Shown piece by piece: positions 21,986 to 32,436 of a stretch of DNA of 64,000 nucleotides; position 1 is the stretch's first letter; each line of letters opens with the position of its first letter. The notes under the pieces were generated by a model that worked only from the letters and a program-made list of their open reading frames with translations, did not search any database and was not told where the DNA came from. The translations under genes and the position numbers were made by a program. The stretch is from Rhabdaerophilum sp. SD176 (lineage in GTDB: Bacteria; Pseudomonadota; Alphaproteobacteria; Rhizobiales; Beijerinckiaceae). The stretch lies in contig NZ_JARJNS010000001.1 in the NCBI RefSeq assembly GCF_030143245.1, forward strand, positions 620,001-684,000. Reading direction: 5' to 3'.

Positions 21986-23614
21986 TTACGCAGGAAGCGC
22001 CCCTGCCGGACCACCCGCCGCCGCCTCGAGTGCGGCCCGCGTGTCGAAATCCGCAAGGATGCCGGGATCCTGGACCGGCACCTCGGCCACCCGGTCGCGC
22101 CGCGCCTCCAGCAACCGCCGCGCACCCTGGTCGCCCGTCAGGGCCATGAGGTCCGGAAACAGGCCCCGCCGCACCAGAACCGGGTTGCCCCACTGGCCAT
22201 GATGCACCGGCACATAGGCGTCCATCTCCGGCTGCTCATAGGACTGCTGCGCAAGGCGCTGCAACGTCTCCGGCAGCAGGCGGGGCATATCCCCCAGCAT
22301 GATGAACGCGGCCCCGGTCTCCGGGGGCATGGCCGCAAGCCCTGCCCTGAGCGAAGTGGCAAGCCCCTCGCGGTAATCAGGGTTCGCGATGAGCCGGGCT
22401 CCCATGCCGGCCGCCAGCGCCTCGATCGTTTCGGCCTCATGCCCGGTCACGACAACAACCGGCCCCAGCGCCGCCGCCCGAGCCGTATCCAGCACATGGG
22501 CCAGCATCGGCCGCCCCTCGAACGAAGCAAGCAGCTTGTTCTCCGCGCCAAACCGGGTCGATCGCCCGGCCGCGAGAATGACAATCCCGAACGCGCCCGG
22601 ACCGGCAGGCCGAACCTCGCCGGCACGGGGCTGCGGCCGCGAGACAATCTCCATCAGCAACCCGCCCGTGCCCATGCGCTGGAGATCGCGCCCGCTTACC
22701 GGAAGATCGGCGCAGAGCCGCGCCAGCACCCAGTCAAAGCCGTTCTCGCGCGGCGAGCGGGCACAACCCGGCGCGCCGATCACCGGCTTGCCCTGCCATC
22801 CCGCCAGCATCAGAAGATTGCCGGGATCGACCGGCATTCCGAGATGGACGAGCCGCCCGCCCTGCGCCTCGATGGACGCGGGAATCACATCGCGCCGGTC
22901 GGCGATCGCCGCAGCGCCGAACACGATGAGAATGTCGAAACCGGCAGGATCAAGCGCTGCGAGGCTGGCTTCCAGCGCTTCCTGCCGATGCTCGATCCGT
23001 GCTTCCGAAACGAGCCGGCTGCCGAGGGCGGCAAGCCGCGCCTCCATCACCCGCCGCGTCTTCTCGATCACACTCTCCTTCAGGCCCGGCAGGCGCAGCG
23101 ACAGCAGCGCCACCCGTTTCGGCCGGAACGGCGCGACCCGCATCGCGCCGGCGGCGAGTTGCCGGCAACCAGCCTCGACCAGCGCGCCCGGCACGGCGAA
23201 GGGGATGATCTTGACCGTTGCCACCATCTCGCCCGGCACCACCCGGCGGAAGGCCGGCAGGGTGGCAAGCGTCAGATCGGGATCGATCAGATTGAAAGCG
23301 TCAATCGCGGCTGGTTCCGGTACGAACAGCCCCGCTTCCGTGGCGAAGAGATTGGCCCGCCCCGTAAAGGCCGGGTCGGCCCGCAGGCCCGGTCCGAGCG
23401 CCGCCTCGGCCAGCCGCGCGGCCGCCTCGTCCTCGGAAAGATCGCCCGGTTCAAGCCGGGCAATCGTCACCTCCGCCATCCCCGCTGCGGCGAGCGAGCG
23501 GCAATCCGCCCCGTCGAGCCGATGGCCCTTGCGGAAAGCGGTCTCGCCCGCCCGGACCTGATGCGCCAGCACGGCGCCCTCGGCCTCGCTGACGGGAACC
23601 CGCCCGAAAAACAT
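21986..23614 (-). CDS. Molybdopterin-binding domain / NTP-transferase (MocA-like) fusion
   Basis: 542 residues in two parts. Residues about 1-330 are a MoeA/MogA-like molybdopterin-binding region (opening FFGRVPVSEAEGAVLAH; DILIVFGAAAIADRRD in the middle). Residues about 340-530 are a nucleotidyltransferase with GIVILAAGRSTRFG and LGDMP motifs, like MocA, which makes the cytosine dinucleotide form of the molybdenum cofactor used by xanthine oxidase-family enzymes. The fusion is known in alphaproteobacteria. It sits at the end of the maturation operon for the CoxSLM enzyme, so it most likely prepares that cofactor. The next upstream gene overlaps its start by one base. Confidence 0.88.
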   Translation of the reverse strand: MFFGRVPVSEAEGAVLAHQVRAGETAFRKGHRLDGADCRSLAAAGMAEVTIARLEPGDLSEDEAAARLAEAALGPGLRADPAFTGRANLFATEAGLFVPEPAAIDAFNLIDPDLTLATLPAFRRVVPGEMVATVKIIPFAVPGALVEAGCRQLAAGAMRVAPFRPKRVALLSLRLPGLKESVIEKTRRVMEARLAALGSRLVSEARIEHRQEALEASLAALDPAGFDILIVFGAAAIADRRDVIPASIEAQGGRLVHLGMPVDPGNLLMLAGWQGKPVIGAPGCARSPRENGFDWVLARLCADLPVSGRDLQRMGTGGLLMEIVSRPQPRAGEVRPAGPGAFGIVILAAGRSTRFGAENKLLASFEGRPMLAHVLDTARAAALGPVVVVTGHEAETIEALAAGMGARLIANPDYREGLATSLRAGLAAMPPETGAAFIMLGDMPRLLPETLQRLAQQSYEQPEMDAYVPVHHGQWGNPVLVRRGLFPDLMALTGDQGARRLLEARRDRVAEVPVQDPGILADFDTRAALEAAAGGPAGALPA

Positions 23615-24300
23615 CAGCTGCGCCGCCGCTGGCGCTGCGTGCCGATAATCTCGGCGAGGATCGACACGGCAATCTCCGCCGGGCTGACCGCGCCGATATC
23701 GAGCCCGATCGGCGCGTGGATCCGCGCGAGATCACGCTCGGAAAACCCGGCCGCCGCCAGCCGTTCAAGCCGTTTGGCATGCGTCTTCCGGCTGCCCAAT
23801 GCGCCGATATAGAAGCACCCGGCCCGGAGCGCGACCGTCAGGGCGGGATCGTCGATCTTGGGGTCATGCGTCAGCGCGACAAAGGCGGTGTAGCGGTCCG
23901 GCTTCAATGGCGGCAGCGCCACATCCGGCCATTCCGCGATCAACCGCACATTCGGAAAGCGCTCCGGCGTGGCAAAGGCCTCGCGCGGGTCGATCAGCGT
24001 GCAGTCGAGTTCGACCAGCCGCGCCATCTCGGCCAGCGCCTGGCTGATATGCACCGCCCCGATCACGATCAGCCGCACCGGCGGGACATGGACATCGATA
24101 AAGGTTTCCCGGTCCCCGGCCATCGATTTCATGGACTTGCCGGTCCGGAAGGCCTCGGCCAGAGCTTCGGCGGCGGGGTCACCGGCCAGCCCCTCCGGCG
24201 TCACCAGCCGGGCGGCGGCGCTGGCGAGATCGGTGACGAGCGCCACCGCCTCGCGGGCGGCGCGATGGCGGTTCAGGGCGGAGAGCAGGGCGAGATCCAC
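23614..24300 (-). CDS. XdhC C-terminal (Rossmann) domain protein
   Basis: 228 residues matching the Rossmann-like C-terminal half of XdhC/CoxF (VRLIVIGAVHISQAL near residue 78, LTHDPKID, then IGALGSRKTHAKR). XdhC proteins bind the molybdenum cofactor, help its sulfuration and insert it into molybdenum hydroxylases. The N-terminal domain is encoded as a separate gene upstream. The stop overlaps the fusion gene start by one base, so translation is probably coupled. Cytoplasmic. Confidence 0.9.
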   Translation of the reverse strand: MDLALLSALNRHRAAREAVALVTDLASAAARLVTPEGLAGDPAAEALAEAFRTGKSMKSMAGDRETFIDVHVPPVRLIVIGAVHISQALAEMARLVELDCTLIDPREAFATPERFPNVRLIAEWPDVALPPLKPDRYTAFVALTHDPKIDDPALTVALRAGCFYIGALGSRKTHAKRLERLAAAGFSERDLARIHAPIGLDIGAVSPAEIAVSILAEIIGTQRQRRRS

Positions 24301-24309
24301 CGGAAATCC

Positions 24310-24654
24310 TCAGTTGACCGGTACGACATGCACGGCGATCCGCCCGCCGCAGGACAGGCCGACGCGCCAGGCCGTCTCGTCCGCCACGCCGAATTCGAGC
24401 CGTTTCGGCACCCCGCTGGCGATGACATCGATCGCCTCCGTCACCACTGCGCCCTCGACGCAGCCCCCGGAAACCGAGCCGAGGAAATTCCCCTCTCCGT
24501 CAATGACAAGATGCGAGCCGACCGGCCGCGGCGCGGAGCCCCAGGTCTCGGTGACGGTCGCAAGCGCGACGCCGCGCCCGGCTTTCCGCCAGGCCTCGGC
24601 CGTGGCGAGGATTTCGGTTTCGGTGGCCAGCCCACCCGCAACAGGTTCGCTCAT
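24310..24654 (-). CDS. XdhC/CoxI N-terminal domain protein
   Basis: 114 residues covering only the N-terminal XdhC_CoxI domain: VALATVTETWGSAPRPVGSH, then LGSVSGGCVEGAV and LSCGGRI. The two cysteines in SGGCVEG and LSCGG are those usually conserved. The ATG follows GGAGGG and overlaps the VWA gene stop by 4 bp (ATGA). Together with the following gene it makes a split XdhC, probably acting as a heteromer on the CoxL-type enzyme. Confidence 0.9.
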   Translation of the reverse strand: MSEPVAGGLATETEILATAEAWRKAGRGVALATVTETWGSAPRPVGSHLVIDGEGNFLGSVSGGCVEGAVVTEAIDVIASGVPKRLEFGVADETAWRVGLSCGGRIAVHVVPVN

Positions 24655-25877
24655 GGTCCCTCCCGGAGGTAGCGACGCGGATCCGCGCCTGTGCCCTGCC
24701 CGTCCGCCAGCGCCCGGCACAGATCGGCCATGGCGTTCAGGCTATGACAGGTGCGGAATTCGTCAACATGCGGCAGCATCGCCCGGATGCCCGCCGCTTT
24801 CGCCTCGAACCCGTCGAAACGCAGCAGCGGATTGAGCCAGATGAGCCGCCGTGCCGAGCGCCGGAGCCGCGCGAGTTCGCGCGCGAGATCGGGGCGGAGG
24901 TCCCGTTCCAGCCCGTCGGTGATGAGCAGGACCACCGCGCCGCCGCTCATCACCCGCCGTGCCCAGCGTTTGTTGAACCGCTCCAGCGTCTGGCCGATCC
25001 GCGTGCCACCATCCCAGTCGCGCACCATTTTCGCCGCGCCGCGCAAGGCGAGATCGGGGTCCTTGGTGCTCTTCAGCGCATGGCTGACATTCGTCAGCTC
25101 CGTGGCGAAGGTGAAGGCCGAAACGCGCCGCCCGGTCTGGGCCACGGCATGCATGAAATGCAGGAAAATCCGCGAATACTGGCTCATCGAACCGGAAATA
25201 TCGCACAGGGCGACAAGCGGCGGCACTTTCTCCGCCCGCGCCCGGAAGCGCAATTCGAATGCATCGCCGCCGGCCCGCAGGCTGGCGCGCATCGCCCGCC
25301 GCGGATCGGGCCGGTTGCCGTGTGGATCGGCCACGAAACGCCGCGTCTTCACATGCTGGAGCGGCATGACCAGCCGCGCCACCTCGCGCTTCGCTTCGGC
25401 CAGTTCGAGCGCTGACATGCCGTCAAAATCGCGGCTTCGGAACACCTCGATATCCGAAACGGTAAGCCGGGAATCGAGATCGACCCGCTCGCGCTCCGGC
25501 TGGTCCTCGGGCGGCTTCGGCTGGAACAGCGCCTCGGTCAGCCGACGAAGCGCCTCCTCGCGCCGCGAGTCCGGATCGCCCGGCGCCACCGGCATCATCG
25601 AGGCCATCATTTTCTCGAGCAGCGCCCGCCGCCGCCAGAACAGCCGGAAGGCCTGGTCGAACAGGTCCGCATCCTGCCGCCGCTTGACGAAGACGGCCTC
25701 AAGCGCTGCTCGGAACTCCTCCTTGTGGCCGATTCCGATCGCCTCGATCGCTGCCACGGCATCGAGCATCGCCCCCGGCCCGACCGCCATTCCCGCCTGA
25801 CGAAGCGCGCGGCCGAAAAAGGCCACGTTCTCGGCGAGATGTCCGCCGGCAGCTGCGGGCGGGTCGATTGTCGTCAC
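24651..25877 (-). CDS. coxE: VWA domain-containing protein, CoxE-like
   Basis: 408 residues. An N-terminal helical region is followed by a VWA domain with the MIDAS motif DISGSMSQYS (about residue 232). In carboxidotrophs CoxE acts with the MoxR-type ATPase CoxD to build the [CuSMoO2] or Mo site; by analogy it matures the CoxSLM-like enzyme here. The GTG start overlaps the stop of the NTF2-like gene (GTGA), a four-base overlap that strongly supports this start. No membrane segment is visible. Confidence 0.88.
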   Translation of the reverse strand: MTTIDPPAAAGGHLAENVAFFGRALRQAGMAVGPGAMLDAVAAIEAIGIGHKEEFRAALEAVFVKRRQDADLFDQAFRLFWRRRALLEKMMASMMPVAPGDPDSRREEALRRLTEALFQPKPPEDQPERERVDLDSRLTVSDIEVFRSRDFDGMSALELAEAKREVARLVMPLQHVKTRRFVADPHGNRPDPRRAMRASLRAGGDAFELRFRARAEKVPPLVALCDISGSMSQYSRIFLHFMHAVAQTGRRVSAFTFATELTNVSHALKSTKDPDLALRGAAKMVRDWDGGTRIGQTLERFNKRWARRVMSGGAVVLLITDGLERDLRPDLARELARLRRSARRLIWLNPLLRFDGFEAKAAGIRAMLPHVDEFRTCHSLNAMADLCRALADGQGTGADPRRYLREGP

Positions 25878-26275
25878 GCGCGTGTCTCGGTCATGAAGAC
25901 CTTCTGGGCAACCAGCCATCGCCCATCGATTTTGAGGAAAGACAGCAGATCTGTGAAGAAGCGGGGCGGAATGGCGCAGGCGAGTTTCACATGCGCCATG
26001 CCGGGGCCAGCAAGGTCGATCGTCAGGATGCGATCATGACGCGGAAGGCCGGCGGCACGCGGCGACGGCCGGTTGCGCACGGCATCCAGCCAAGCGTCCC
26101 TCGGGGTAATCCGCAAGGCGCCCTCGCTGAACTGCGTCAGGGCCGACGTCGGATGAAAAACGGCCGCGAGCTTTTCCGCATCGCCCTCGTAAAGCCCGTC
26201 GAGATAGGTTTGCACCGCCGACCGGATGCTGGCGAGATCATCATCGTCCATTGGCCCCTGCGCTCCTGTTCTCAC
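25874..26275 (-). CDS. NTF2-like (Lumazine_bd_2) protein in the cox maturation operon
   Basis: 133 residues matching the SnoaL/NTF2-like cone fold of the Lumazine_bd_2 family: an N-terminal helix (VQTYLDGLYEGDAEKL), FHPTSAL, and strands ending FLKIDGRWLVAQKVF. Members are cytoplasmic and mostly uncharacterised. It overlaps the MoxR stop with GTGA (start at 26275; an internal ATG at 26251 is a less likely alternative), and its stop overlaps the CoxE start. Its position between CoxD-like and CoxE-like proteins suggests an added factor in cofactor assembly. Not part of the classic cox gene set as I know it. Confidence 0.75.
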   Translation of the reverse strand: MRTGAQGPMDDDDLASIRSAVQTYLDGLYEGDAEKLAAVFHPTSALTQFSEGALRITPRDAWLDAVRNRPSPRAAGLPRHDRILTIDLAGPGMAHVKLACAIPPRFFTDLLSFLKIDGRWLVAQKVFMTETRA

Positions 26276-27174
26276 AACCCGGCCCTCACCTCATCAAGGA
26301 TTTCCTTGGCGCGGCTGCCCTGCAGCTTGACGATGTCATCCTGGTATTTCAGCAGCACGCCGAGCGTGTCGGAAACGAGAGCCGGGTCGAGTGCCACGGC
26401 ATCGAGTTCAACCAATGCGGTGGCCCAGTCCAGCGTCTCGGCGACGCCGGGCACCTTGAACAGGTCTTCCTGACGGATCGCCTGGACATAGGCCACGATC
26501 TGCTTCGAGAGCTGCGCCGGCACCTTCGGCGCCTTGGCCTTGAGGATCGCGAGTTCCCGCGCGGTATCCGGGTAATCGACCCAATGGTAGAGGCAGCGGC
26601 GCTTCAAGGCGTCATGCACCTCGCGGGTGCGGTTCGAGGTGATGATGACGATCGGCGGCGCCGGCGCGCGGATCGTGCCGAGTTCCGGGATCGTCGCCTG
26701 GAAATCGGAAAGGATTTCCAGCAGGAACGCCTCGAAGGCCTCGTCCGTGCGGTCCAGCTCGTCGATCAGCAGCACCGGCGGGCCGGCCGGATCAGCCTCC
26801 AGCGCTTGCAGCAGCGGCCGCTTGACGAGGAAGCGTTCGGAAAACACGTCCGCGGCGAGCTTCGCCCGGTCATGCTCGCCCGAGGCCTCGCCGAGGCGGA
26901 TCGCCATCATCTGGCCTGCATAGTTCCACTCATAAAGCGCAGCAGCGCTGTCGAGCCCTTCATAGCATTGCAGCCGGATCAGCTTGCGGCCCAAGGCCCG
27001 CGCCAGCACCTTGGCGATCTCGGTCTTGCCGACGCCGGCTTCCCCCTCGAGGAAGAGCGGCCGGCCGAGCCGCAGCGCGAGAAACAGCACGGTCGCGAAG
27101 CCGCGCTCCGCGACATAGGATTCGGCGCGGAGCAGATCGAGCGTGGCATCGATCGAGGCAGGCGCATGGATCAT
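26272..27174 (-). CDS. MoxR-family AAA+ ATPase, CoxD-like
   Basis: 300 residues. Walker A is GEAGVGKTEI (about residue 43), Walker B is VLLIDELDRT, sensor 1 is IITSN and an arginine-finger region is RRC. MoxR/CoxD ATPases act with VWA proteins to mature metalloenzymes. The ATG begins MIHAPASID and overlaps the LysE gene stop (ATGA). Its own stop overlaps the next gene (GTGA). It belongs functionally with CoxE and the form II CoxSLM enzyme upstream. Confidence 0.9.
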   Translation of the reverse strand: MIHAPASIDATLDLLRAESYVAERGFATVLFLALRLGRPLFLEGEAGVGKTEIAKVLARALGRKLIRLQCYEGLDSAAALYEWNYAGQMMAIRLGEASGEHDRAKLAADVFSERFLVKRPLLQALEADPAGPPVLLIDELDRTDEAFEAFLLEILSDFQATIPELGTIRAPAPPIVIITSNRTREVHDALKRRCLYHWVDYPDTARELAILKAKAPKVPAQLSKQIVAYVQAIRQEDLFKVPGVAETLDWATALVELDAVALDPALVSDTLGVLLKYQDDIVKLQGSRAKEILDEVRAGL

Positions 27175-27773
27175 CGACGGGTCCCCCAGAAAAACCAGAC
27201 CGCGACCAGCGCGATCGACACCGCCAGCAGGCGGCGGACCAGCCGCTCGCGCGGCCCTTCCACGAGATAGGGCCGGAGCGCGGCGGCGAACAGCACGATC
27301 AGGGCATGGACCGCCGTCGCGACCAGCACATAGATCAGCACAAGCAGCAGGGTCTGCCCAGCCACGCCGCCGGCTGCCGGTGTGAGGAAGAGCGGCAGGA
27401 CCAGCACATAGAAGGCTGCCGCTTTCGGGTTGAGCAGGTTGGTGACGAGCGCCCTCCGGAACGCCGCACGCGGGCCTGCCCCGTCGCCGTTCTCGGCGGC
27501 AGCGCCGCGCCACGCGTCCCAGGCGAGGTAAAGCAGGAAGGTGGCCCCGCCATAGCGCAAACCGTCATAGGCCATCGGCACGGTCTCGATCAGCGTGGCG
27601 AGGCCGAACATCGAGGCGAGGCCGATGCCCGTCAGCCCGAGGGCCACCCCGGCCACGGCCGCCAGCCCCACGCGACGGCCTTCGGCCAGCGCGAGCGTGG
27701 CGAGATAGGCCATGTTCGGCCCGGGCGTCATCTCGATCAGCAGCGAGGCCAGGGCAAATTCCAGAACGCGCAC
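27171..27773 (-). CDS. LysE-family translocator
   Basis: About 200 residues with six membrane segments and the LysE/RhtB N-terminal signature MTPGPNM near residue 15. Such proteins export amino acids or related compounds. The GTG start at 27773 has a GGAG about 13 bp upstream and sits in front of the hydrophobic N-terminus; a longer in-frame start adds 37 non-hydrophobic residues. It is the first gene of the maturation operon and overlaps MoxR by ATGA. Its link to the Mo enzyme is unclear. Confidence 0.85.
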   Translation of the reverse strand: MRVLEFALASLLIEMTPGPNMAYLATLALAEGRRVGLAAVAGVALGLTGIGLASMFGLATLIETVPMAYDGLRYGGATFLLYLAWDAWRGAAAENGDGAGPRAAFRRALVTNLLNPKAAAFYVLVLPLFLTPAAGGVAGQTLLLVLIYVLVATAVHALIVLFAAALRPYLVEGPRERLVRRLLAVSIALVAVWFFWGTRR

Positions 27774-27862: not shown

Positions 27863-28225
27863 ATGAACCCGAAGGAAACCGCAATCGCTTTCGCGGCGCT
27901 GCTGAAGGATGGCAAGCATATCGAAGCTGCCACTCAGTTCAACGCGCCGGATATTGCCAGCTTCGAGGCGATGGAAGGGCCGATGGCGGCTTGCCATGGC
28001 GCCGAAGCCGTGAAAGCCAAGAGCGACTGGTGGTATGCCAACCATGAGGTCCATTCCGCCAATGCCGATGGCCCCCTGATCAACGGCAACCAGTTCCTGA
28101 TGCGGTTCTCGCTGGACGTCACCCCGAAAATGACCGGCCAGCGCATGCAGATGGAAGAATTCGGCCTCTATACCGTCCGCGACGGGAAGATCGTCGAGGA
28201 GCGCTTCTTCTATCCCACCGCTTGA
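27863..28225 (+). CDS. SnoaL-like (NTF2 superfamily) protein
   Basis: 120 residues, single SnoaL/NTF2-like domain. It has the helix-loop at residues 1-20, FEAMEGPMAACHGAEAVKAK in the middle and EFGLYTVRDGKIVEERFFY at the end. An AAGGAG site precedes the ATG. It lies between the divergent LysE operon and the convergent coxM gene, and is the second NTF2-like protein in this cluster. Substrate or partner unknown. Confidence 0.82.
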   Translation: MNPKETAIAFAALLKDGKHIEAATQFNAPDIASFEAMEGPMAACHGAEAVKAKSDWWYANHEVHSANADGPLINGNQFLMRFSLDVTPKMTGQRMQMEEFGLYTVRDGKIVEERFFYPTA

Positions 28226-28262: not shown

Positions 28263-29069
28263 TCATTTTGCCGTGGCGGCCGTGACAGCCCGGCGGGCCA
28301 TCACGCCGATGAGATGGCTGCGATATTCCGCCGAGGCGTGGATATCGCTGTTCAGATCCTTGGCCGGCGGATTCGTCACGCCCTCGAGCGATTTCGCGTT
28401 GAAGCGCTTGCCGAGCGCCGCTTCGGCTTCCGCCCAGCGGAACACGCCATCCGAGCCGGCGCCCGTCACGGCGACGACCACCGACGAACCCTTCTTGCCG
28501 ACGGCGACACCCACCATCGCATAGCGCGAGGCCGGGTTGCGGAACTTCGCATAGGCGAACTTGCCGCCCGTCGGCACAATGACCTTCGTGATGATCTCGC
28601 CCTCGTCGAGCGCGGTCGAGAACATGCCGGTGAAGAACTCGCCCGCCGGGATCTTCCGCCGATTGGTGACAATCGTCGCACCGAGGGCCAGCAGTCCGGC
28701 CGGATAATCCGCTGCCGGATCATTATTGGCGATCGAGCCGCCGATCGTGCCCTTGTGGCGCACATGCGGGTCACCGATGCCGCCCGCCAGGGCGGCAAGC
28801 CCGGGCAGCAACTCCCGGACGAGCGCGGAGGAAGCCACTTCGGCATGGCTCGTCATCGCACCGATGACAAGGTTACGGCCCTTCTGCTCGATCCCTACCA
28901 GTTCCGGCACGCCGGACAGGTCGATCACGGCAGCGGGGCTGGCCAGCCGCTGTTTCATGGTGGGGAGCAGGGTCTGCCCCCCGGCGAGGATCTTCGCATC
29001 CTCGACCTTGCCGATCAGGCTGTTGGCCTGGCGAAGGGTGGCGGGACGATGGAAATCAAAGGCGTACAT
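28263..29069 (-). CDS. coxM: FAD-binding subunit M of a CO-dehydrogenase/xanthine-oxidase-type enzyme
   Basis: 268 residues. FAD contacts are visible: KILAGGQTLLPTMKQRL near residue 30 and AGGIGDPHVRHKGTIGGSIANNDPAADYP near 95-123, plus the C-terminal lobe (about 180-260) that packs on the small subunit. It passes electrons from the CoxS iron-sulfur clusters to the acceptor. Third gene of the coxS-coxL-coxM order typical of form II enzymes; a hairpin lies in the 91-bp gap after coxL. Cytoplasmic or membrane-associated. Confidence 0.92.
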   Translation of the reverse strand: MYAFDFHRPATLRQANSLIGKVEDAKILAGGQTLLPTMKQRLASPAAVIDLSGVPELVGIEQKGRNLVIGAMTSHAEVASSALVRELLPGLAALAGGIGDPHVRHKGTIGGSIANNDPAADYPAGLLALGATIVTNRRKIPAGEFFTGMFSTALDEGEIITKVIVPTGGKFAYAKFRNPASRYAMVGVAVGKKGSSVVVAVTGAGSDGVFRWAEAEAALGKRFNAKSLEGVTNPPAKDLNSDIHASAEYRSHLIGVMARRAVTAATAK

Positions 29070-29160: not shown

Positions 29161-31524
29161 TTATTCCGCAGCCCGCGCGAGGCCGGCCTGCGCCGCCTGC
29201 CAGACGGCCTGCGGCGTGGCCGGCATGGCGATATTCTCGTGGCCGAGCGCGTCGGTGATCGCGTTCATCACCGCCGCAGGCGCAGCGATGGCGCCAGCCT
29301 CGCCACAACCCTTGATGCCCAGTGGGTTCGATGGGCACGGTGTGGTGGTGTGGTCGACGCGGAAGGACGGCAGGTCATCGGCGCGCGGCATGGCGTAATC
29401 CATGTAGCTCGCGGTCAGAAGCTGGCCGTTGGAGTCGTAGACGGCTCCTTCGAGCAGCGCCTGCCCGATCCCCTGCGCAATGCCGCCATGGACCTGCCCT
29501 TCCACGATCATCGGGTTGATGATCACGCCGAAATCATCCACCGCCGTCCATTTGGCGATGGTGGTGACGCCGGTATCGGGGTCGATCTCGACTTCGGCAA
29601 TATGCACGCCCGAGGGGAAGGTGAAGTTGGTCGGGTCATAGAAGGCCCCCTCCTTCAGCCCCGGCTCGAGCTGTTCGCCGGTGAACTTGTGGGCGATATA
29701 GGCCTGCAGGGCGACCGAGGCAAAATCGATCGACTTGTCGGTACCCTTCACCGAGAACTGGCCGTCCTTGAAGTCGATATCAGCCTCGGAGGCTTCCAGC
29801 ACGAAACTGGCCACCTTCTTGGCCTTGGCCTCGATCTTGTCGAGCGCCTTGACGATGGCGGACATCCCCACCGCGCCGGACCGGGAGCCATAGGTGCCCA
29901 TGCCCATCTGCACCTTGTCGGTATCGCCATGGACGATCGCGACATTCTCAATCGGGATGCCGAGCCGCCCGGCCACGAGCTGGGCGAAGGTGGTCTCGTG
30001 GCCCTGGCCGTGGCTGTGCGAGCCGGTCAGCACTTCCACGGTCCCGACCGGGTTGACGCGCACCTCGGCCGATTCCCACAGGCCGACACCCGCGCCGAGC
30101 GAGCCCACCGCCGCCGACGGCGCGATGCCGCAGGCTTCGATATAGGCCGAATAGCCGAGGCCGCGCAGCTTTCCGGCCTTGGCGCTCTCGCGCTTGCGGC
30201 GGGCGAAGCCCTTCACATCATGGATCTCCATCGCCTTGGCCAGCGAGGCGTTGTAGTCGCCCGTGTCATAGCACATGATCACCGGCGTCTGGTGCGGGAA
30301 GGACTTGATGAAGTTCTTCTTGCGGAATGCCGCCGGATCCATGCCGAGTTCACGGGCCGCCACTTCCATCAGCCGCTCGATCACGAAAGTGGCTTCCGGC
30401 CGGCCGGCGCCGCGATAGGCGTCGACCGGGGCGGTGTTCGTGTAAACGGCCTCCACCTCGCCGTAGATGGCGGGGATATTGTACTGCCCCGACAGGAGCG
30501 GCACATAGAGATAGGTCGGCACCGAGGAAGCGAAGGTGGAGAGGTAGGCGCCGAGATTGGCCCGCGTCTTCACATGAAGCCCGAGGATCTTGCCATTCTC
30601 GTCAATCGCCATCTCGGCATGGGTGAGATGGTCGCGGCCATGGGCAATGGCGAGGAATTCCTCGGTCCGGTCCGCCACCCATTTCACCGGCCGCCCGACC
30701 TTCTTGGCCGCCCAGACGCAGATCGTCTCCTCGGCATAGATGAAGATCTTGGAGCCGAATCCGCCGCCGACATCCGGCGCGATCACGCGGAGCTTGTGCT
30801 CCGGCGCAATGCCGATGAAGGCGGAAAGCACCAGCCGCGCGACATGCGGGTTCTGGCTGGTCGTGTAGAGCGTGAAGGCTTCCTCGCCGGGATTGTAGTC
30901 GCCGATCGCCGCGCGCGGTTCCATTGCGTTGGGAATGAGGCGGTTATTGACGAGGTCGATCTTCGTGACGTGTTTCGCCTTCCTGAAGGCTGCCTTCACG
31001 GCAGCCTCGTCGCCGAGATGCCAGTCATAGACCTGGTTGTCCGGCGCGGCATCATGGATGGCGGGGCTGCCCTTCTTCGTCGCGGAGGCAAGGTCGACAA
31101 CCGGCTTCAGCGGCTCGTAATCGACGATGATCGCTTCCGCTGCGTCGCGCGCCTCGGCGAGCGTCTCGGCGATGACGACGGCGACATGATCCCCGACATA
31201 GCGCACCTTCCCGACCGCCAGCGCCGGATGGGCGCCGGCCTTCATCGGGGTGCCGTCCTTCGAATGGATCATCCAGCCGCAGATCAGCCCGCCGACCTTG
31301 TCCGCCTCGATATCGGCGCCGGTGAAGATCCCGACAACGCCCGGCATCGCCGCAGCTTTGGCGGTATCGATCTTGCGGATCTTCGCATGGGCATGCGGCG
31401 AACGCAGGAAATAGGCATGGGCCTGCCCGGGACGGTTGATATCGTCCGTGTAATTGCCCTTGCCAGTGATGAAGCGGAAATCTTCCTTGCGCTCGACGCG
31501 CGCACCAATTCCGGTGCCAGCCAT
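29161..31524 (-). CDS. coxL: Molybdopterin-binding large subunit, form II CoxL-like
   Basis: 787 residues, full length for the xanthine oxidase family. The active-site loop is AYRGAGR at 369-375. This is the form II signature; true CO dehydrogenase (form I) has AYxCSFR with a Cys that binds copper, which is absent here. The catalytic Glu is in GCGEAG near residue 742. Mo-cofactor-binding stretches such as DVGGGFGSK (251-259) are present. The natural substrate cannot be told from sequence; CO oxidation is unlikely. A GGAGGG site precedes the ATG. Confidence 0.94.
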   Translation of the reverse strand: MAGTGIGARVERKEDFRFITGKGNYTDDINRPGQAHAYFLRSPHAHAKIRKIDTAKAAAMPGVVGIFTGADIEADKVGGLICGWMIHSKDGTPMKAGAHPALAVGKVRYVGDHVAVVIAETLAEARDAAEAIIVDYEPLKPVVDLASATKKGSPAIHDAAPDNQVYDWHLGDEAAVKAAFRKAKHVTKIDLVNNRLIPNAMEPRAAIGDYNPGEEAFTLYTTSQNPHVARLVLSAFIGIAPEHKLRVIAPDVGGGFGSKIFIYAEETICVWAAKKVGRPVKWVADRTEEFLAIAHGRDHLTHAEMAIDENGKILGLHVKTRANLGAYLSTFASSVPTYLYVPLLSGQYNIPAIYGEVEAVYTNTAPVDAYRGAGRPEATFVIERLMEVAARELGMDPAAFRKKNFIKSFPHQTPVIMCYDTGDYNASLAKAMEIHDVKGFARRKRESAKAGKLRGLGYSAYIEACGIAPSAAVGSLGAGVGLWESAEVRVNPVGTVEVLTGSHSHGQGHETTFAQLVAGRLGIPIENVAIVHGDTDKVQMGMGTYGSRSGAVGMSAIVKALDKIEAKAKKVASFVLEASEADIDFKDGQFSVKGTDKSIDFASVALQAYIAHKFTGEQLEPGLKEGAFYDPTNFTFPSGVHIAEVEIDPDTGVTTIAKWTAVDDFGVIINPMIVEGQVHGGIAQGIGQALLEGAVYDSNGQLLTASYMDYAMPRADDLPSFRVDHTTTPCPSNPLGIKGCGEAGAIAAPAAVMNAITDALGHENIAMPATPQAVWQAAQAGLARAAE

Positions 31525-31616: not shown

Positions 31617-32105
<489 letters not shown>

Positions 32106-32436
32106 GAAACTCTCCTTGAGCGAAAATGGGCACAAAACCGCGCCCAACGTTTCCTGGCGGGGCCTTGTAATGCCGTTTTTGGGTCTTTTTCCCCGGTTTT
32201 TCTAAGGTGGACCCGTTCTAAAGAAACCGTCAAGCGGCCAATTGCACGCAAACCGGCAAATTCGTTTGCGCATCGCAGCAATTCAAAAGCTGATAGCCGG
32301 CAAGAAAACCGCCGGAAACACCCGCTTCATGAAGAAGGCCTTCCGCCGAAGAAGCCGTGCCGCTTTCGCTTGTTTTTCCATCCGATTGCCATGAAGCTAG
32401 GCAGGTTCGCGACGAACCCTTCCCGAGGATCTCCCT
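32106..32436. promoter_or_regulatory. Divergent intergenic region (coxS / PcaD-like gene)
   Basis: About 330 bp without a gene. It must contain the promoter for coxSLM on one strand and for the PcaD-like gene on the other. There are short T-rich tracts at about 32170-32205 but no box I would defend. A small ORF can be read but has no coding signs. Confidence 0.35.

Follow-up and report, generated by a model that had tools for sequence, protein, structure and literature searches.

A gene for a small NTF2-like protein of family PF12893 lies between the MoxR- and CoxE-type genes of a molybdenum hydroxylase operon in Rhabdaerophilum sp. SD176 (Alphaproteobacteria; Rhizobiales), within a stretch of 64,000 nucleotides (contig NZ_JARJNS010000001.1, positions 620,001 to 684,000) that is referred to here as the window. 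The gene occupies 25874-26275 on the minus strand and, judged from sequence comparisons, looks like a lineage-specific accessory of the operon, optional and not required. Its position is kept in eight genera and its ratio of nonsynonymous to synonymous substitution rates (dN/dS) is low, and it is therefore not the accidental neighbour that the original prediction had allowed for. The placement between a CoxD/CoxE-type pair proposed there is confirmed. The suggested role as a general assembly factor or an escort for CoxE is not supported, in view of close operons that lack the gene, the virtual absence of MoxR and CoxE residues that sort with it, unrelated genes in the same slot and members of the subfamily found at places without MoxR or CoxE. 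A tentative reading is preferred instead, in which the product would use its pocket to act on a metabolite connected with the form II CoxL-like hydroxylase, and the gene would be an optional add-on to the operon.

Recurrence and constraint

The protein is well above the gathering cut-off of PF12893 (Lumazine_bd_2; 107.7 bits against 22.1, covering profile positions 2-115 of 116) and is the only match to this family in its genome. The reference to lumazine binding in the family name is a Pfam label. In a set of 61 genomes, that of the window included, a match to the NTF2-like protein at E 1e-5 was found in 19. Among 298 genomes of the taxonomic family, 56 contain an NTF2 match (E 1e-10) and 169 a CoxE match (E 1e-60). 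The best NTF2 match reaches at least 54% identity in 46 family genomes, and in 38 of these it lies directly upstream of CoxE, so that the gene order sought elsewhere does recur. By hand count, the 38 genomes belong to genera g1 (3), g5 (3), g12 (22), g13 (3), g20 (1), g164 (1), g170 (2) and g175 (3); counted in the same way, the order is present in 22 of the 24 g12 genomes that have CoxE. For the remaining eight, the NTF2 match is on another contig or far off in six, no CoxE match is listed for G488, and G484, whose CoxE position is not listed, has no CoxE match in the 16 kb around NTF2 (L082). None of the listed NTF2 matches with 47% identity or less adjoins CoxE, as judged by eye. Twenty-two of the 38 loci were read, including the window, and MoxR is upstream in all of them; other open reading frames (ORFs) separate MoxR from NTF2 in L031, and a cysteine-rich ORF separates NTF2 from CoxE in L025.

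A wider search of contigs covered the best 80 of 503 relatives, with CoxE nearby in 42 and not in 38. The CoxE-adjacent copies among these 80 come from sequences titled Bosea, Boseaceae, Methylobacterium, Microvirga, Beijerinckiaceae or unplaced Rhizobiales/Hyphomicrobiales; loci with Bradyrhizobium, Roseomonas-like and Burkholderiales titles are off-locus. In two contigs of metagenome-assembled genomes titled Klebsiella pneumoniae (L137, L152), the copy is close to copies from alpha- and gammaproteobacterial metagenome-assembled genomes; the names may be wrong.

The NTF2-like gene appears functional because its dN/dS is low, at 0.02-0.14 in eight cox-linked pairs; the value is 0.07 in one off-locus pair. 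Apparent mismatched matches (CoxL of the window and L044; LysE of L063/L066 and L069/L070) were left out of the dN/dS set. Alignment A1 has 24 invariant columns, all of them common to the 19 cox-linked and six off-locus copies.

Absence, other occupants and history of the slot

CoxE is present in each of the 17 genomes of the window's genus, with NTF2 upstream of it in three: alone in the window and G013, and together with a cysteine-rich gene in G004. The slot holds the cysteine-rich gene in eight others and is empty in five, and the contig ends there in G006. G003 and G007 have no NTF2 in the slot, yet carry a 61% identical copy elsewhere in the genome. In a group of five close operons, three lack NTF2 (G012, G011 and G015; L043-L045); in these, CoxE is 95-97% identical to that of the window and the MoxR stop overlaps the CoxE start. 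A required maturation factor would be present wherever a close orthologous operon is, which is not the distribution found in the genus or in L043-L045.

At the level of the order, CoxE (E 1e-60) was found in 189 of 397 genomes, and 40 loci were read, 39 of them from other families. NTF2 is between MoxR and CoxE in none of the 40, in agreement with the claim that the classic cox set has no such gene. No intervening ORF of at least 80 amino acids is present in 36 of these loci; the other four contain a ParE-type toxin (L168, L188) or a GNAT protein (L184), as identified by Pfam, or a protein ParE-like in appearance (L166). A tree was built from 69 operons (68 loci and the window), whose manner of discovery favoured NTF2; of these, 49 have NTF2 in the slot, 10 have the cysteine-rich gene and one has both, while nine have no gene there. 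The toxin and GNAT genes of other families look as if the MoxR-CoxE junction tolerates insertions.

They would also fit an explanation that is considered unlikely, namely that the NTF2-like gene merely profits from operon expression at a tolerant junction and has no functional link to the enzyme. Its composition and divergence are in keeping with this: G+C content at third codon positions is 0.74 against 0.81-0.86 in the other genes of the chain, and the synonymous divergence (dS) from the L023 copy, at 0.74, exceeds the 0.28-0.51 of LysE, MoxR, CoxE, both XdhC genes, CoxL and CoxM, values compatible with a separate history of the gene. The neighbours of off-locus copies, which are heterogeneous and include housekeeping genes, point the same way. 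Against it, the gene is kept upstream of CoxE in nearly all CoxE-bearing g12 genomes and in eight genera overall, with low dN/dS in each of the eight cox-linked pairs.

The cysteine-rich ORF, of about 163-175 amino acids (CGTCTLCCK...), fills the slot in the eight genus members and in two other genomes. The loci concerned are L046, L048, L049, L051, L052, L054-L057 and L059, and the ORF follows NTF2 in L025/L101. It has no NCBIfam match and matches PF03692 below the cut-off (E 0.022, 15.9 bits against 23), which together with its sequence weakly suggests a 'CxxCxxCC-like' protein.

In the tree of NTF2 proteins (98 rows, 50 cox-linked and 48 off-locus; 122 columns) both kinds are intermixed, with 8 changes. 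A single clade of cox-linked copies is rejected with all 98 rows (approximately unbiased test, p 0.0005); the p value is 0.07 after removal of 13 off-locus rows that were chosen after the tree had been seen and that all lie inside one cox-containing group. The three copies from the window's genus may form one clade (p 0.57). Repeated insertion into the slot was considered as an explanation of the tree and not adopted, as copies leaving the slot explain it equally. In a DNA tree of the five close genomes the window and L023 are grouped weakly (75/89), and gain and loss of NTF2 are therefore indistinguishable there. The residues that sort with NTF2 presence in these five genomes number 0 of 300 in MoxR, 1 of 408 in CoxE, one in XdhC-N and one in CoxL. 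Co-adaptation of MoxR, CoxE, XdhC-N or CoxL with NTF2 was dropped, the signal amounting to single residues at most.

The operon in the window

The genes of the unit are as follows.

21986-23614, minus strand: MobA/MocA-like nucleotidyltransferase with a long N-terminal part (PF12804, E 2.6e-42, residues 345-507)
23614-24300, minus strand: XdhC Rossmann domain as a gene of its own (PF13478, E 2.1e-45)
24310-24654, minus strand: XdhC N-terminal domain as a gene of its own, XdhC-N (PF02625, E 7.6e-25)
24651-25877, minus strand: CoxE-like VWA protein, GTG start (PF05762, E 4.6e-68)
25874-26275, minus strand: NTF2-like protein (PF12893, E 7.9e-31), from GTG 26275 (133 amino acids) or, more likely, ATG 26251 (125 amino acids)
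26272-27174, minus strand: MoxR-type AAA ATPase, CoxD-like (PF07728, AAA_5, E 4.6e-12)
27171-27773, minus strand: LysE-family transporter heading the overlapping chain (PF01810, E 2.1e-26)
27863-28225, plus strand: SnoaL-like protein (SnoaL_5) between CoxM and LysE (PF20409, E 8.9e-20)
28263-29069, minus strand: CoxM-like FAD subunit (PF00941, E 2.4e-49)
29161-31497, minus strand: CoxL-like molybdenum subunit (PF20256 and PF02738) with the form II motif AYRGAGR, read in the translation
31617-32147, minus strand: CoxS-like 2Fe-2S subunit, from its translation and from matches beside CoxL in related loci

Among the products of the unit are a molybdenum hydroxylase of form II type (CoxS, CoxL, CoxM), an XdhC divided between two genes and a MobA-like protein. 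CoxL has AYRGAGR in place of the form I CO dehydrogenase motif (A/S)YRCS(F/L)R; the meaning of the two motifs is taken from part of one source (PMC13240472). The MoxR protein scores 270.5 bits against the MadB_ATPase model, under its cut-off of 475. As in a coxDEF-type maturation set, the MoxR ATPase, CoxE VWA and XdhC proteins adjoin coxSLM-type genes. The coxDEF genes of Oligotropha carboxidovorans, which serve a form I CO dehydrogenase and lie in the order D-E-F, specify the same three kinds of protein: CoxD is an ATPase of the MoxR type, CoxE has a VWA domain and CoxF is of the XdhC type. Unlike them, the window has a form II CoxL, XdhC split in two and an NTF2-like gene between MoxR and CoxE. 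Growth on CO is lost in coxD, coxE and coxF mutants of that organism, in which the enzyme's active site is not mature (PMC4240915).

The LysE, MoxR, NTF2-like, CoxE and XdhC-N genes are chained by overlaps of four bases, as originally described: 27171-27174 (LysE/MoxR, ATGA), 26272-26275 (MoxR/NTF2, GTGA), 25874-25877 (NTF2/CoxE, GTGA) and 24651-24654 (CoxE/XdhC-N, ATGA). The second of these requires the GTG start at 26275. A rival in-frame ATG at 26251 has AGGAG about 13 bases ahead of it and aligns with the start chosen for most homologues in A1, which favours it. These homologue starts were set by rule and several of the ORFs extend further upstream, so the alignment does not prove the ATG start; if it is used, MoxR and NTF2 are separated by a gap of about 20 bases. 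The tight overlapping chain, called unusual in the original prediction, is largely a local trait: the NTF2-to-CoxE match distance ranges from -7 to 501 bases across the 38 genomes.

The LysE chain is divergent from the SnoaL-like gene. A SnoaL_5 gene is present on the opposite strand of the CoxM/LysE interval in 26 of 64 related loci; SnoaL domains have the NTF2-like fold. LysE-type genes recur at two sites of these operons (for example in L063, L069 and L071). One site is upstream of MoxR, where 18 of 64 loci have LysE between it and CoxM; the other separates the XdhC halves and holds LysE in 40 of 66 loci. The loci were chosen partly through NTF2 matches.

Fold and possible roles of the NTF2-like protein

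The AlphaFold2 model of the protein is predicted to have an NTF2-like fold (pLDDT 94.2, pTM 0.87). Its closest structures are 3blz, 3fka and 3duk (Z 18.0-19.3, with 3blz at 19.3; root-mean-square deviation 1.5-1.8 over 118-120 residues), which are also found by profile (E 3e-8 to 1.9e-6). They share the fold of the model, but at 20-25% identity, and are titled as of unknown function; presumably all three belong to PF12893. The matches from the structure and profile searches also comprise enzymes, oligomerisation hubs and a designed ligand binder, and the fold therefore does not decide function. Enzymes with this fold include AtzH, LinA and scytalone dehydratase. Like the protein of the window, AtzH is a small NTF2-fold protein encoded in an operon, in its case a catabolic one, but it belongs to DUF3225 and not PF12893 and is a weaker match (Foldseek rank 24, TM 0.64). 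Its operon is that for cyanuric acid; its role was once unclear and an enzyme has been proposed, according to part of PMC6219798.

In the preferred reading, the pocket of the NTF2 fold would bind or act on a small organic metabolite tied to what the neighbouring hydroxylase consumes or makes. The gene would have been inserted at the tolerant MoxR-CoxE junction and would be made in step with the operon by co-transcription and translational coupling, because relatives that lack it have the MoxR stop codon overlapping the CoxE start codon at this very place; the junction is probably translationally coupled. It would be dispensable, as it can be missing with no visible change in MoxR, CoxE or CoxL.

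Off-locus neighbourhoods were viewed at 16 loci and neighbours were scanned with Pfam at six (L027, L030, L084, L088, L090, L105); other neighbour names were given by eye, and the neighbours are raw observations. Some of them belong to the metabolism of organic acids. The copy in L027 adjoins a CaiB-type CoA-transferase, and an ORF resembling aldehyde dehydrogenase lies further up; those in L084, L088 and L090 are beside acyl-CoA ligases. An FAA hydrolase is also a neighbour in L105 and a TPP enzyme in L030, and a large flavoprotein monooxygenase-like ORF is near the Bradyrhizobium copy (by eye). The off-locus copy nearest to that of the window (L088, 77% identity) lies between a two-subunit molybdenum hydroxylase, which it comes after, and the acyl-CoA ligase, with no MoxR or CoxE match within 8 kb on either side. 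These neighbours, L088 included, weakly favour a small-molecule role. The idea that every off-locus copy has a catabolic setting was abandoned, with copies of the L105 type beside ArgC-like and ribosomal genes and others beside housekeeping or transport genes; this slightly lowered the weight given to the metabolite reading and raised that of a mere passenger.

Several observations weigh against the metabolite reading. The L105 and L078 copies adjoin a gene for an ArgC-like semialdehyde dehydrogenase that itself comes after genes for ribosomal proteins; neighbours elsewhere are SecG and CTP synthase-like (L131, L142), phosphoesterase-like (L113) or transport genes (L116, L154). The molybdenum hydroxylase neighbour of L088 is one case in 38 off-locus loci, and a common fold alone shows no function. 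In L074 and L075 the order is CoxM-MoxR-NTF2-CoxE-XdhC, with no CoxS or CoxL match in the stretch examined, about 6 kb upstream of MoxR; retention of NTF2 with MoxR and CoxE there points to the maturation module.

It would accord with an optional third component, in which the NTF2-like protein, by contact with CoxE or MoxR or by presenting the cofactor, would make maturation more efficient in some lineages, its place being taken in others by the cysteine-rich protein or by nothing. This is thought rather unlikely. It would account for the placement directly upstream of CoxE in 38 genomes, with MoxR preceding in every locus read, and for the cysteine-rich gene in the same slot of eight genus members; third components beside MoxR-vWA pairs have a precedent in conflict systems, described in part of PMC7159879. 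Yet close operons do without NTF2, MoxR has no co-varying residue and CoxE a single one, and copies of the same subfamily with the same invariant residues occur where MoxR and CoxE are missing. The lack of a sizeable ORF in most order-level slots and the ORFs between MoxR and NTF2 in L031 also argue against it. A broader proposal, and an improbable one, is that the junction in form II operons is an exchangeable module slot, where an NTF2-fold or a cysteine-rich CxxCxxCC-like protein would serve as alternative third component tuning cofactor maturation to the type of substrate.

In the literature searched, mainly open-access, no title or abstract opening on an NTF2-like gene between MoxR and CoxE was found. 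Form II CoxL-like enzymes are close kin of true CO dehydrogenases, and their activity is called unresolved in one source (PMC13240472). Off-locus relatives of the NTF2-like protein offer leads to its chemistry, and natural operons that differ by the NTF2 gene, with CoxE 95-97% identical, make it possible to test cleanly how much the enzyme depends on a small accessory protein.

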